Below are positions 34,155 through 54,072 of a DNA stretch of 64,000 nucleotides, one piece after another. Position 1 is the first letter of the stretch. Each line of letters opens with the position of its first letter. The stretch is taken from positions 1,706,501 through 1,770,500 of the forward strand of contig NC_011899.1 in the NCBI RefSeq assembly GCF_000020485.1. Reading direction: 5' to 3'. The stretch is from Halothermothrix orenii H 168. Lineage in GTDB: Bacteria > Bacillota > Halanaerobiia > Halanaerobiales > Halothermotrichaceae. The notes beneath the pieces are model-generated. The model ran no database searches. It was not told the origin of the DNA and worked only from the letters and a program-made list of their open reading frames with translations. A program made the translations under genes and the position numbers.

Positions 34155-36973
34155 TTATTATTGAGATATTTACTTAAAAACTGTCCCGTATAAGATTCAG
34201 GGTTGGCTGCAACCTCTTCCGGGGTTCCGGTAGCAATAACCTGCCCTCCCCGGTCCCCTCCTTCAGGGCCAAGGTCTATGATATAATCGGCAGCTTTTAT
34301 AACATCAAGGTTATGCTCTATTACAATGACGGTATTACCACCTTCCCGGAGTCTGAAGAGTACTTCAAGAAGTTTCTTTACATCCTCAAAATGCAGACCG
34401 GTAGTTGGTTCATCCAGAATATAGATGGTCTTTCCGGTACTCCTTTTTCCCAGTTCAGAGGCAATCTTTATCCTCTGGGCCTCACCCCCGGATAAAGTTG
34501 TTGCCGGTTGACCCAGTCGAATATAACCGAGACCAACATCATAAAGGGTCTGTAACCGCCTCTTTATCGGATTGACATTGGCAAAAAACTCCAGGGCTTC
34601 CTCAACCGTCATCTCGAGTATATCTGCTATTGTTTTTCCCTTATATTTTATCTCCAGGGTCTCCCGGTTATATCTTTTACCCCCGCATACCTCACAGGGG
34701 ACATAAACATCAGGCAGAAAATGCATTTCTATCTTGATTATGCCATCACCTTTACAGGCCTCACAACGGCCCCCTTTTACGTTAAAACTGAACCTCCCCT
34801 TCTTATACCCCATCCTCCGGGCCTCGGGGGTTTTGGCAAACACATCCCGGATATAATCAAAAACCTTGGTGTAGGTTGCTGGATTTGACCTAGGGGTCCT
34901 GCCTATGGGTGACTGGTCTATATTAATAATCTTATCGACATACTCCAGCCCCTTTATTTCATCATGTTCACCCGGCCTCAGGGTGGAATCATAAAAATGC
35001 TGCATTAACTTTCGTTTCAAAGTCAAATTAATCAGGGTACTCTTCCCTGAACCGGAAACACCGGTAACACAGGTAAAAGTCCCCAGGGGGATTTTGACAT
35101 CTATATTTTTAAGGTTATGCTGCCTGGCCCCCTTAATCTCCAGGTATTTACCATTGGGTCTAACCCTCTTTTCAGGTACCGGTATTTTCTTTTCTCCAGA
35201 TAAATACTGACCGGTCAGGGATTCTTTACTGGAAACAATGTCTTCCAGAGAACCCTGGGCTACCACCCGGCCACCGTGTTTACCGGCCCTGGGACCGATG
35301 TCAATAATGTGGTCAGCTGCCCTGATGGTATCTTCATCATGTTCAACAACAATAACCGTATTCCCCAGATCCCTGATATGTTCAAGGGTTCTTATTAAAC
35401 GGTTATTATCCCTCTGGTGGAGCCCTATACTCGGTTCATCTAGAATATATAAAACCCCTACCAGTCCTGAACCAATCTGGGTAGCCAGCCTGATTCGCTG
35501 GGCCTCACCCCCGGACAAACTCCCGGCCGGCCGGTCCAGGGTAAGATAGTCCAGACCAACATCTATTAAAAACCGTAACCTGTTTTTAATCTCTTTAATA
35601 ATTTCCTGACTTATATACTGTTCCCTTTCTGTTAAATTTAATTCTTCTATGAAATCATAGGCTTCCTTAATTGAATAACGGGTAAATTCGGCAATTGATT
35701 TACCCCCGACCGTCACAGCCAGAACCTCAGGCCGCAACCGGCCCCCCTGACAGGTAGAACAGGGCCGTTCACTCATATATCTTTCCAGCCTGCGATGGGC
35801 TGTCGGAGAGTCAGATTCATTAACCCGCCTTTTTAAATAACCAACTATCCCCTTAAAATAGGTTTTATGCTGCCTGGTTCTCCCATAGCGGTTGGTATAG
35901 GGAAAAACAAGTTGCCTGTCCGAACCGTACAGAATAATATCTATGATGTCATCATCCAGTTGCTCCAGGGGGGTATCCAGGCTGAAGTTATACTCTTCAG
36001 CCAGGGCTGACAGGAGCTGAGGATAATAACGACTTGTTGAATTACGCCAGGGAATAATGGCCCCGTTACTGATGGATTTTTCCTTATCAAGGATAAGATC
36101 AGGATCAAATTCCTTTTTTATACCCAGTCCATCACAATTGGGACAGGCCCCATAGGGGCTGTTGAAAGAAAACATCCGGGGAGACATTTCTTCCAGACTG
36201 ATACCACATTCGGGACAGGCAAATTTCTCACTAAATACCATTTCATCTCCATCGATAACATCTACAATGACCAGCCCTTCACTGTATTCCAGGGCAGTCT
36301 CAATGGAATCGGTCAATCGCTCCCGGATACCTTCTTTAATAACCAGTCTATCGACGACAACTTCAATATCATGTTTTAAATTTTTCTCAAGGCTAACCTC
36401 TTCTTCCCCCAGAATGATGACCCTTCCATCTACCCGGGCCCTGACAAAACCATCCCTCAGGGCCCTTGTAAATACCTTCTGATGCTCACCCTTTCTTCCC
36501 CTGACCACCGGTGACAGAATCTGTATTTTGGTCCTTCCCGGTAGATCCAGAACCTGATCCACTATCTCATCAACACTCTGGGATGAGATAGCCCGCCCGC
36601 ATTCGGGGCAGTGGGGCCTTCCTATTCTGGCATACAGAAGGCGCAGATAGTCATAGATTTCAGTAACAGTACCGACTGTGGAACGGGGGTTTTTACTGGT
36701 GGTTTTCTGATCAATTGAAATAGCAGGAGATAAACCTTCTATATATTCAACCCGGGGTTTTTCCATCTGTCCTAAAAACTGCCGGGCATAGGCTGATAGA
36801 GACTCGACATAACGCCTTTGACCCTCAGCATAAATGGTATCAAAAGCCAGTGAAGATTTACCAGAACCACTCAAACCGGTTATAACTATAAGTTTATCCC
36901 TTGGAATCCTGACATCAATATTCTTTAAATTATGCTCCTGGGCTCCCTTAACATAAATCATTTCCTTGACCAT
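34148..36973 (-). CDS. uvrA: excinuclease ABC subunit A
   Basis: 941 residues. Two ABC ATPase units: Walker [10 protein letters not shown] and GVSGSGKST, signatures [12 protein letters not shown] and [12 protein letters not shown], zinc-finger pairs such as CPECGRA and CEACKGDG. It detects bulky DNA lesions and loads UvrB. ATG with GAGGTGA; begins seven bases after uvrB. Confidence 0.98.
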
Positions 36974-50528: not shown

Positions 50529-51668
50529 TTAACTGGCCATCCTTTCCGACACCAGGGATTTAATATATTTGATAGCCTTTTCCAGCTGGTTATCAACTTT
50601 ACTTTCAGAATCATACTCGACAGTAATGTCTGGTTTAATCCCCTTTTCATGGATATACCTTCCCTCAGGTGTAAAATAATTGGCTGTAGTCAGGCGGAGA
50701 GCCGAACCGTCATCAAGGGGTATTACCGTTTGAACCGTTCCCTTGCCATAGGTTGTCGTTCCCATTACTGTTCCCCGGTTATGATCCTGAATAGCACCGG
50801 CCACAATTTCAGAGGCACTGGCACTATATCCATTAACCAGAACCACAAGGGGTAAATCTATACTGGAAATGTTAGATTCGACTTTAAAACTCTTCTCCTG
50901 GCCGTTTCTCTGCTTTATGGAGACTACTTCTCCATTTTCAACAAAATTACTGGTAACTGTTATAGCTTCTGTTAACAATCCTCCAGGATTATTACGTAAA
51001 TCGAGGATTACTCCTTTCGCCCCTTTTGACATCAGCTCCAGTAAACCCCTTCTAACTTTCTGACCTGTATTCTCAACAAACTGATGAATCACAATATAGC
51101 CAATCTTATCATCTTTCATTTCCCATTCTACATATGGAATCTCTATATCAGCCCTGATAATTTCAACATCAAAGAGTTCTTTTTTATTTTCCCGTTTTAT
51201 AGTTAGGATAACTCTGGTACCGGGTTTGCCCCGCATAAGGTTTACAGCTTTCTCCTGGGGCATATCTTTAGTTGGTTTTCCATCAATGGCAACAATGATG
51301 TCACCTGATTTTAAGCCAGCTTTATCACCAGGAGTGTTTTTGAAAGGCTGAACCACAGTTAACTTGTCATCATAGGTGCTGATTACTATACCAATACCAC
51401 CATAATGGCCTTCAAATTCAAACTGCATGTCCTCATATTCCTCAGGGGTCAAATACCCGGAATACGGATCCAGAGAATCCACCATTCCCTTGATAGCACC
51501 CCGCATCAGCTTATCCAGCTTGACATCTTCAACATAATAATTTTTTATTAGATAAATAACATCCTGAAAGGCATCTATGGATGTATATTCCTCCTCAGCA
51601 AAAGCAGAAAAATTTATGGTAAATAATAATATTACCAGAACCAACACTGTATTAAGATACTTTTTCAA
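50529..51668 (-). CDS. ctpA: S41-family carboxy-terminal processing protease
   Basis: 379 residues. Signal peptide (MKKYLNTVLVLVILLFTINF then FAEE), PDZ domain (GGIGIVISTYDDKLTVVQPF; GLKSGDIIVAIDG) and the Ser/Lys protease site: NGYSASASEIVAGAIQ with Ser, TTTYGKGTVQ with Lys. Exported processing peptidase. It follows ftsX; in many clostridia an M23/EnvC-type gene lies between ftsX and ctpA, but the 166 bases here hold none. Confidence 0.93.
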   Translation of the reverse strand: MKKYLNTVLVLVILLFTINFSAFAEEEYTSIDAFQDVIYLIKNYYVEDVKLDKLMRGAIKGMVDSLDPYSGYLTPEEYEDMQFEFEGHYGGIGIVISTYDDKLTVVQPFKNTPGDKAGLKSGDIIVAIDGKPTKDMPQEKAVNLMRGKPGTRVILTIKRENKKELFDVEIIRADIEIPYVEWEMKDDKIGYIVIHQFVENTGQKVRRGLLELMSKGAKGVILDLRNNPGGLLTEAITVTSNFVENGEVVSIKQRNGQEKSFKVESNISSIDLPLVVLVNGYSASASEIVAGAIQDHNRGTVMGTTTYGKGTVQTVIPLDDGSALRLTTANYFTPEGRYIHEKGIKPDITVEYDSESKVDNQLEKAIKYIKSLVSERMAS

Positions 51669-51834: not shown

Positions 51835-52427
51835 TTATACCTTCAGGTAGGTTAATATTACCCCGGTCCCTACCCCGATAGAAAACAGTTCTAAAAACAG
51901 GGAAATATTGAAAAAGCTGTAATGAAGTAAAGGCAATCCTGAATAACTGGTCACCAAAAAACCATATAAGGAATAGTAAAAACCCTGCAGGGAAATTGTT
52001 ACCATTACCAGGGCCAGAATATTAATTAAAGTGAGGGTGTAGAGTAAAGGTAACTGGTATAATTGCTTTTTTCCTTTAAGTTTTTTTACAAGCTGTATTT
52101 CATCCTGATAAGAATCCCTTATATTTTCAAGGTATCTATCATTGACATAGATATAAAAAAACACAAAGAGAATAAACAGTATCGTCTGAAAATCCTTAAT
52201 TTACCAATATTGCCCATAAGAGGAACCAGGTGGAGTAATTGAAGTCTCAGAAGAGAAGGTGTTGAAATAGTTGAGGACAGGTAGTTTAGATTTATTATGG
52301 TGATATAACTTAGCCCGAGCATAAACTGCAGTAAAAAGGAATTTAAAAAAAACATAATACTCTGATTCAGGTTCAGGATCAGATTACGGCATGCTTCCCG
52401 GCAGGCAAAGAAAAATGTTTTAAGCAT
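51835..52427 (-). pseudogene. ftsX: frameshifted, domain-deleted ftsX
   Basis: Two overlapping frames on the minus strand. The 5' part (ATG 52427, in an ATGCTTAA overlap with ftsE) gives FtsX-like residues through the first membrane segment (SIMFFLNSFLLQFMLGLSYI) and stops at 52119. The 3' part (open from after TAA near 52199) has membrane segments 2-4 with YVNDRYLENIRDSYQDEIQL, matching the FtsX TM2 region. One base is missing between them, or slippage at a T7 tract (about 52156-52162) restores the frame. The joined product would be about 196 residues against about 300 normally; the extracellular domain is absent. Confidence 0.7.
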
Positions 52428-53070
52428 AGGATCCCTTCCCGGGAATATTAATTTTCCCATTATTTATATCTATTAATTTTTTTCTATTATCCATTATTAT
52501 GTTGTCACTGGTTAGCCAGATGATGGTCGTTGACAGTCTATTTATATCCTCCATCAGGTGGGTAATTCCCTTTGCATTGACCTCATCAAGGTCTCTGGTC
52601 GGGTCTTCAAGTAACAACATGGAGGGATAATTAACAAGGGCCTGAGCAACATTGGCCCTGACCAATTGATGGTCCAGCAATTCATCTGGTGTCAGGTTAG
52701 ATTTATCATAAATGTCAACAATCTGGAGTAATTTTTTGATCCGCGGTTTAACAAATTTAGGAGAAACACCCTTGACGGTCATAATATACCTGAGGTTTTC
52801 TAACAGGGTTCGGCGGGGTAATAATATATTATCCTTATAAACTACCCCCAGATTCTCCCTTTTAACAGAAGTTGAATAATATGAGCTATTAAACCACCTT
52901 ATCATCCCTTTATCTGGTGCAACCTTCCCTGTCAACAAATCTCTCAACAGTTTTAATATCCGATCATTATTTGCTTTTATTAAAACAAAATCCCCGTGGT
53001 TTATGTTAAATGATAAATTCTCAATTTGAGTGTCTTTTACTTTCTTAAAGACCTGATTAAAAATTATCAT
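52420..53070 (-). CDS. ftsE: FtsE-like ABC protein lacking catalytic motifs
   Basis: 216 residues, alignable with FtsE along its length (LGVVYKDNILLPRRTLLENL; VNYPSMLLLEDPTRDLD; INNGKI). The catalytic positions are gone: Walker A is KANNDRILK with no GKS/T, the Q-loop Gln is Lys, the signature LSGGQ is LLDHQ, Walker B's DE is ED, and the H-loop is LTSD with no His. It cannot bind and hydrolyse ATP in the normal way. Normally FtsE powers FtsX to activate septal murein hydrolases. It is either a decayed gene or a structural pseudo-ATPase. Confidence 0.85.
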   Translation of the reverse strand: MIIFNQVFKKVKDTQIENLSFNINHGDFVLIKANNDRILKLLRDLLTGKVAPDKGMIRWFNSSYYSTSVKRENLGVVYKDNILLPRRTLLENLRYIMTVKGVSPKFVKPRIKKLLQIVDIYDKSNLTPDELLDHQLVRANVAQALVNYPSMLLLEDPTRDLDEVNAKGITHLMEDINRLSTTIIWLTSDNIIMDNRKKLIDINNGKINIPGKGSYA

Positions 53071-53145
53071 TTATATCCCCTTTCAAATGGGATTTTTATC
53101 GGCACTAAATAGTATACTTAATCTAAAGCTATTATATAAAAAATG

Positions 53146-53173
53146 CCCACAGGTAATTTAATCTACCTGTGGG
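53146..53173 (-). terminator. terminator of the yitT gene
   Basis: CCCACAGGTA (53146-53155) / TACCTGTGGG (53164-53173), eight-base loop. On the minus strand GCATTTTTTATA follows. Confidence 0.92.
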
Positions 53174-53211: not shown

Positions 53212-54072
53212 TTAATCCGCTTCTTTAAAACCCTCACCCAGTACTTCATGGGCATTGGTAATTATAACAAAGGCTTCAGGATCAATGTTATATACCAGTC
53301 TCTTCAATTTGGTTACTTCTGACCGTGATATTATACACAAAAGAACATCTTTGTCTTCACCGGTATATCCCCCGTAACCTTTTAGGCCAGTTACACCCCG
53401 TTCCAGGGATGACAGAACTTCATCCTTAATCTTTAGAGAATGACGGGATATTATTAAAGCTACTTTACTGATATCAAGACCTTCCTGAACAAGGTCTATG
53501 GTTTTACTGTTAATAAAAATCGTCAGGGTCGCATATAGAGCTACTTCTACATTAAAAAATATCCCGGCCAGAGCAACTACAAAACCATCAGCCAGTAACA
53601 AACCCTGTCCCATACTCATTCCGGTATAATGATTTATCAAGCGGGCCACCATATCAGTACCACCGGTGGTTCCTTTAAAGCGGAATACCAATCCCAGACC
53701 GAGGCCACCCAGGACACCACCGTATATAGCAGATAGTAACAGATTATTGGTAAGAGCAGGTACCAGGGGCTGAAACAGGTCAGTAAAGATAGATAAGGTT
53801 ATAATTCCATAGACTGTTCTGGCCCCAAAGGAAGCCCCGAGAACCTTTATCCCTGTTATAAATAAAGGAATATTTATTAATAACATGGTTATACCTACCG
53901 GTAAATCAAAGAGATAATATATTACTGTAGCCAGTCCACTGACACCACCGGCAGCAATTTTATTGGGAATTAAAAATAAGGTTAACCCGAGGGCAGTTAA
54001 GATGGAGCCCATCGTTATTCCCAGATAATCAATAAAAAGCTGTTTCTTACTGAGTTTTAGCTTTGTTTTCAC
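53212..54072 (-). CDS. YitT-family (DUF161/DUF2179) membrane protein
   Basis: 286 residues. Five or six membrane segments with the glycine-rich GGVSGLATVIYYLFDLPVG, RFKGTTGGTDMVARLI typical of YitT, then the soluble C-terminal DUF2179 domain (SLERGVTGLKGYGGYTGEDKDVL shortened to its core G.YT..). Function unknown. GTG start after GGGGTGGTGTAATATC. Single gene with its own terminator. Confidence 0.9.
   Translation of the reverse strand: MKTKLKLSKKQLFIDYLGITMGSILTALGLTLFLIPNKIAAGGVSGLATVIYYLFDLPVGITMLLINIPLFITGIKVLGASFGARTVYGIITLSIFTDLFQPLVPALTNNLLLSAIYGGVLGGLGLGLVFRFKGTTGGTDMVARLINHYTGMSMGQGLLLADGFVVALAGIFFNVEVALYATLTIFINSKTIDLVQEGLDISKVALIISRHSLKIKDEVLSSLERGVTGLKGYGGYTGEDKDVLLCIISRSEVTKLKRLVYNIDPEAFVIITNAHEVLGEGFKEAD

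Follow-up and report, generated by a model that had tools for sequence, protein, structure and literature searches.

A conserved FtsEX descendant in Halanaerobiales with degenerate ATPase motifs and without the FtsX outer domain

FtsEX, a type VII ABC system, is described as an ATP-driven mechanotransmission device acting on cell wall hydrolases. The division of FtsEX into a scaffold and a motor role has so far been studied with laboratory mutants. In E. coli, the recruiting step is independent of ATP hydrolysis, with FtsE binding the FtsZ tail and FtsX binding FtsA; an FtsE mutant unable to hydrolyse ATP blocks septal wall synthesis, and ftsEX is dispensable at raised osmolarity (PMC7343993). 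We describe here a conserved FtsEX descendant that, judged by its motifs, is ATPase-dead and stripped of its outer domain; in the searches made it was confined to Halanaerobiales. No report of a degenerate FtsEX was found in the literature covered, which left out most subscription journals.

The pair, termed ftsE* and ftsX*, lies on the minus strand of the window, the 64,000-nucleotide stretch of the Halothermothrix orenii H 168 genome that was analysed, in the order wecG-like, yitT, ftsE*, ftsX*, ctpA. ftsE* (52420–53070) encodes an FtsE-like protein of 216 aa. ftsX* (51835–52427) encodes an FtsX-like membrane protein in two overlapping frames (52427–52119, then about 52199–51835), and all three frames were recovered at the positions given in the initial annotation. 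The two genes overlap (52420–52440): ftsX* starts with an ATG at 52427, before ftsE* has ended, and a purine-rich ribosome site precedes this start; this arrangement was observed at 10 of 11 junctions. A yitT-like membrane protein gene (53212–54072, minus strand) is the upstream neighbour, and a gene for a ctpA-like S41 C-terminal processing peptidase (50529–51668, minus strand) the downstream one. Elsewhere on the minus strand of the window, at about 34400–36930, a 945-aa frame with split ABC-domain Pfam matches is putatively UvrA-like by its layout.

The best NCBIfam model for the window FtsE* was TIGR02673 with 99.6 bits, far below its cut-off of 264.85 bits, which no protein reached in 38 genomes of the order Halanaerobiales. 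The Pfam ABC_tran model scored 31.2 bits and exceeded its cut-off of 25. The best PDB matches of FtsE* were FtsE proteins, both by sequence and by fold. In the tree, FtsE* formed a single clade (100/100) on a long stem and grouped with FtsE, not with 29 other ABC ATPases (97/99); the copy of genome G022 had a very long branch.

The initial annotation had reported the loss of Walker A, the Q-loop, the signature, the DE order and the H-loop, and each of these losses was confirmed against canonical FtsE. In the window protein, Walker A changed from GPSGAGKST to ANNDRILKL, the signature from LSGGE to LLDHQ and Walker B from ADE to LED, while the Q-loop Q and switch H were replaced by K and S, respectively. 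An alignment of the eleven FtsE* proteins with nine canonical FtsE from the phylum showed that all eleven lack the P-loop lysine, the catalytic glutamate, the switch histidine and, in the signature, the S and second G; the Q-loop glutamine was missing from ten. None of the members (0/11) carries an intact Walker A here. Among 75 columns invariant in canonical FtsE, FtsE* lost 37 and kept 20. The losses were not random, because members share H-Q at the old signature (10/11), E-D in place of the D-E of Walker B (8/11) and a new invariant N (residue 165 of the window protein). The LLPDRT stretch was largely kept in the alignment of the eleven. In S. pneumoniae FtsE, the region matching this stretch holds the coupling helix of FtsX (PMC7468199).

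FtsX* matched the initial description of an FtsX with four membrane segments and about 100 extracellular residues missing. Every readable FtsX* kept the four membrane helices and had lost the extracellular domain, and the gap between TM1 and TM2 was 9–36 residues in the FtsX* of relatives versus 120–127 in canonical FtsX. The N-terminal helix, the four TM helices and the coupling helix were retained; in the divergent copy of locus L019, five hydrophobic stretches were called. The coupling-helix motif EI...L...P was invariant, and through this motif the FtsX* profile matched FtsX in the PDB. The structure model of FtsX* resembled FtsX best, and the relationship to FtsX is weak when judged only from sequence or fold (E 0.021 and 0.0088).

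Ten further loci, with 29–49% identity to the window FtsE*, turned up in a search of 38 order genomes: in all eight genomes of family f3 and in one genome each of families f6 and f4. Open ftsE* frames of 208–216 aa were present in all eleven genomes. A pseudogene of one strain, or a sequencing artefact, was rejected for FtsE*, since ten relatives carry the same losses in open frames. ctpA followed ftsX* in all ten relative loci (the G004 locus is split by a contig break), and yitT preceded ftsE* in nine, with wecG in its place in G032. The profile of these proteins matched 11 of 59 genomes of the class; across 398 genomes sampled evenly from the phylum, the only matches were in Halanaerobiales. 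The pair was absent from 27 of the 38 order genomes; among the loci read closely, yitT and ctpA adjoined in four loci of genus g9, and wecG and ctpA in three loci of family f7.

Selection was estimated by a simple counting method on three species of genus g3. The dN/dS values were 0.07–0.11 for ftsE* and 0.10–0.20 for ftsX*, compared with 0.02–0.05 for yitT and ctpA. Pairs with G002 were near saturation at silent sites; the G003–G004 pair alone gave 0.11 for ftsE* and 0.20 for ftsX*. Between H. orenii and G008, codon position 3 changed more than positions 1 and 2, in ftsE* as well as in each half of ftsX*. By these measures both genes are under purifying selection where it could be measured. 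The pair is constrained, though less than its neighbours, and has been lost at times. FtsE*X* is evidently dispensable, because ftsX* is frameshifted in two of the eleven genomes and many genomes of the order do without the pair.

The two genomes with a frameshifted ftsX* were H. orenii and G006. ftsX* was intact in eight relatives, and the ninth showed no break within the part read. The initial annotation had reported that a one-base shift splits ftsX and had pointed to a T7 tract. The shift is real in the given H. orenii sequence and lies within 52157–52204 on the minus strand; assigning it to the T7 tract (52155–52161) at the edge of this interval is not warranted, as profile scores were nearly flat over 52166–52202, with the best at 52199. 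Being restricted to H. orenii and G006, it does not belong to the shared losses. G006 carries a second, separate shift (L018, about 2324–2340), located within the second membrane helix on or close to a T7 tract. Programmed frameshifting at T7 gained no support, since T6–T8 runs are common in intact ftsX* too and the position of the shift is not pinned. Because ftsX* is frameshifted, the FtsE*X* complex of H. orenii may now be broken, or be made only by slippage, and the state of the pair in H. orenii itself is uncertain.

A conserved element, CCACAGGTA...TACCTGTGG, was observed upstream of ftsE*. In the window, the palindrome or hairpin CCCACAGGTAGATTAAATTACCTGTGGG, followed by a T tract, occupies 53146–53173 on the minus strand and occurs once. 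The form CCACAGGTAGnTTAAnTTACCTGTGG followed by a T tract, its arms differing by no more than one change, was present in 10 of 11 loci, at the same place in L010 and L012–L019, and L011 carried a decayed form. Besides the window and the fetched loci, a further 107 kb of H. orenii was checked; the palindrome was not found in the other fetched loci, including four yitT–ctpA junctions without the pair. In G032 it stays with ftsE* though yitT is missing. It may act as a terminator insulating the pair or as an operator. A TATACT box resembling a −10 element, identified by eye from the consensus only, lies 5' of ftsE* (53111–53116, minus strand) and is alike in most relatives. Rfam gave nothing above any gathering cut-off near the locus.

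The surroundings of canonical FtsEX were compared as well. At other Bacillota loci, the order ftsE-ftsX-M23-ctp was found in 9 of 10 fetched. The extracellular domain of FtsX (PF18075) was detected in 180 of 199 sampled phylum genomes; none of the six class members there had it, which corresponds to 180 of 193 outside the class, and it was found in none of 59 genomes of the class. Given this difference between the class and the phylum sample, the whole class has lost the canonical FtsX outer domain. Some lineages of the order still hold the stripped pair. The missing outer domain extends to class orders and families that have no stripped pair, so that division proceeds without canonical FtsEX class-wide. 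Neither a canonical FtsE nor an FtsX outer domain was found elsewhere in the H. orenii genome (2,578,146 bases); a second, canonical FtsEX was thus lacking in H. orenii and, by the FtsX outer domain, across the class.

The absence of an EnvC/M23 gene between ftsX and ctpA, claimed initially, held in the window, and no M23 gene lay between ftsX* and ctpA at the eleven loci. A search for M23 proteins elsewhere, suggested in the initial annotation, gave five M23 genes in the H. orenii genome. The four proteins that were read had LysM domains or else a short coiled coil, and the PcsB-type coiled coil seen in the FtsX-linked partner at L126 was absent from all four. The fifth match (G000 C1:1902894–1903178) lies in a 304-aa frame and had a weaker score. 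The CC_PcsB model matched none of the 59 class genomes; in controls, E. coli EnvC and B. subtilis likewise go undetected by this model.

The proposal that FtsEX hydrolase activation was abandoned is supported by the missing Walker A in all eleven members and the lack of a second canonical FtsEX. We propose that the canonical ftsE-ftsX-M23-ctpA locus was the source and that FtsE*X* would be its vertically inherited remnant. The loss of ATP binding and hydrolysis, of the outer domain that recruits the hydrolase and of the M23 partner would date to an ancestor within the order, with the FtsE–FtsX contact kept under selection. FtsE* may still dock on FtsX* in a nucleotide-independent complex, which could act at the division site as a membrane anchor or scaffold, with neither power stroke nor hydrolase activation. 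Descent, the losses in all members, open frames and purifying selection in relatives, and the conservation of coupling helix and groove are established. The whole explanation, a vertically inherited ATP-free remnant that is probably a division-site scaffold, has in our judgement about an even chance of being right.

The most likely function appears to be that of a division-site scaffold working without ATP, because the contact is kept, recruiting in E. coli needs no hydrolysis, FtsZ of H. orenii has a typical tail and FtsA is present (59 of 59 class genomes). Against the scaffold, FtsA and FtsZ are also present in genomes without the pair; nor is a dead FtsEX harmless by default, since the hydrolysis mutant of E. 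coli blocks septal wall synthesis. The initial annotation left a fossil and a repurposed remnant side by side; the relatives favour repurposing, because ftsE* frames are open in all eleven, dN/dS is low, and the FtsE–FtsX contact, the gene overlap and the leader are kept. A slowly decaying fossil would be an unimportant pair, lost lineage by lineage, with ftsX* of H. orenii already a pseudogene. The frame shifts in G000 (H. orenii) and G006, the 27 order genomes without the pair, its faster evolution than neighbour genes and the long, divergent G022 copy all fit such decay. Open ftsE* frames in 11/11 genomes at 29–49% identity, dN/dS far below 1 for both genes, and conservation of a new motif along with overlap and leader speak against it, and we regard the fossil as rather unlikely.

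Repurposing may also have led outside division, for example to sensing at the envelope or to partnership with the neighbouring CtpA protease. ctpA lies downstream in 11/11 loci, and all outward-facing parts of FtsX are gone. However, ctpA stood next to ftsEX-M23 already in the ancestral order and persists without the pair in many genomes, so the ctpA link may be inherited position only; a role outside division seems distinctly unlikely. It is highly improbable that the pair is not FtsEX at all and degenerated from another type VII ABC family of the LolD/MacB kind. LolD-type models do match FtsE* too (78.3 bits), but FtsE ranks first by NCBIfam, PDB sequence and PDB fold, and both tree and gene order point to FtsE.

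Returning to the ATP-free scaffold, a natural descendant of FtsEX that is still selected but has no ATP site, outer domain or hydrolase partner would separate the scaffold from the motor role. Many members of the class are salt lovers. We suggest by analogy that the loss of the motor fits the dispensability of E. coli ftsEX at raised osmolarity in a class rich in halophiles. The whole class, outer-membraned Firmicutes included, divides without canonical FtsEX. More tentatively, FtsE*X* may represent a naturally evolved FtsEX without a nucleotide cycle, a selected pseudo-ABC scaffold in a class that gave up FtsEX-controlled septal wall hydrolysis.

Compared with known systems, FtsE*X* resembles FtsEX in descent, gene order and NBD fold, and FtsX* resembles FtsX in its four-helix arrangement, N-terminal helix and coupling helix. 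It differs from FtsEX in having no ATP site, signature, switch residues, extracellular domain or hydrolase partner. The locus shares neighbours and order with the ftsE-ftsX-M23-ctpA loci of other Bacillota (L124–L132), including yitT upstream in L130; unlike these, it lacks the M23 gene and both fts genes are stripped. In E. coli, mutants of the FtsE ATPase, such as D162N, and deletions in FtsX loops show that FtsEX has functions free of hydrolysis or of hydrolase binding (PMC7343993). Those mutants were made singly in the laboratory and are expected to bind ATP still, whereas in FtsE*X* the ATP-binding residues and the outer domain were both lost by natural evolution.
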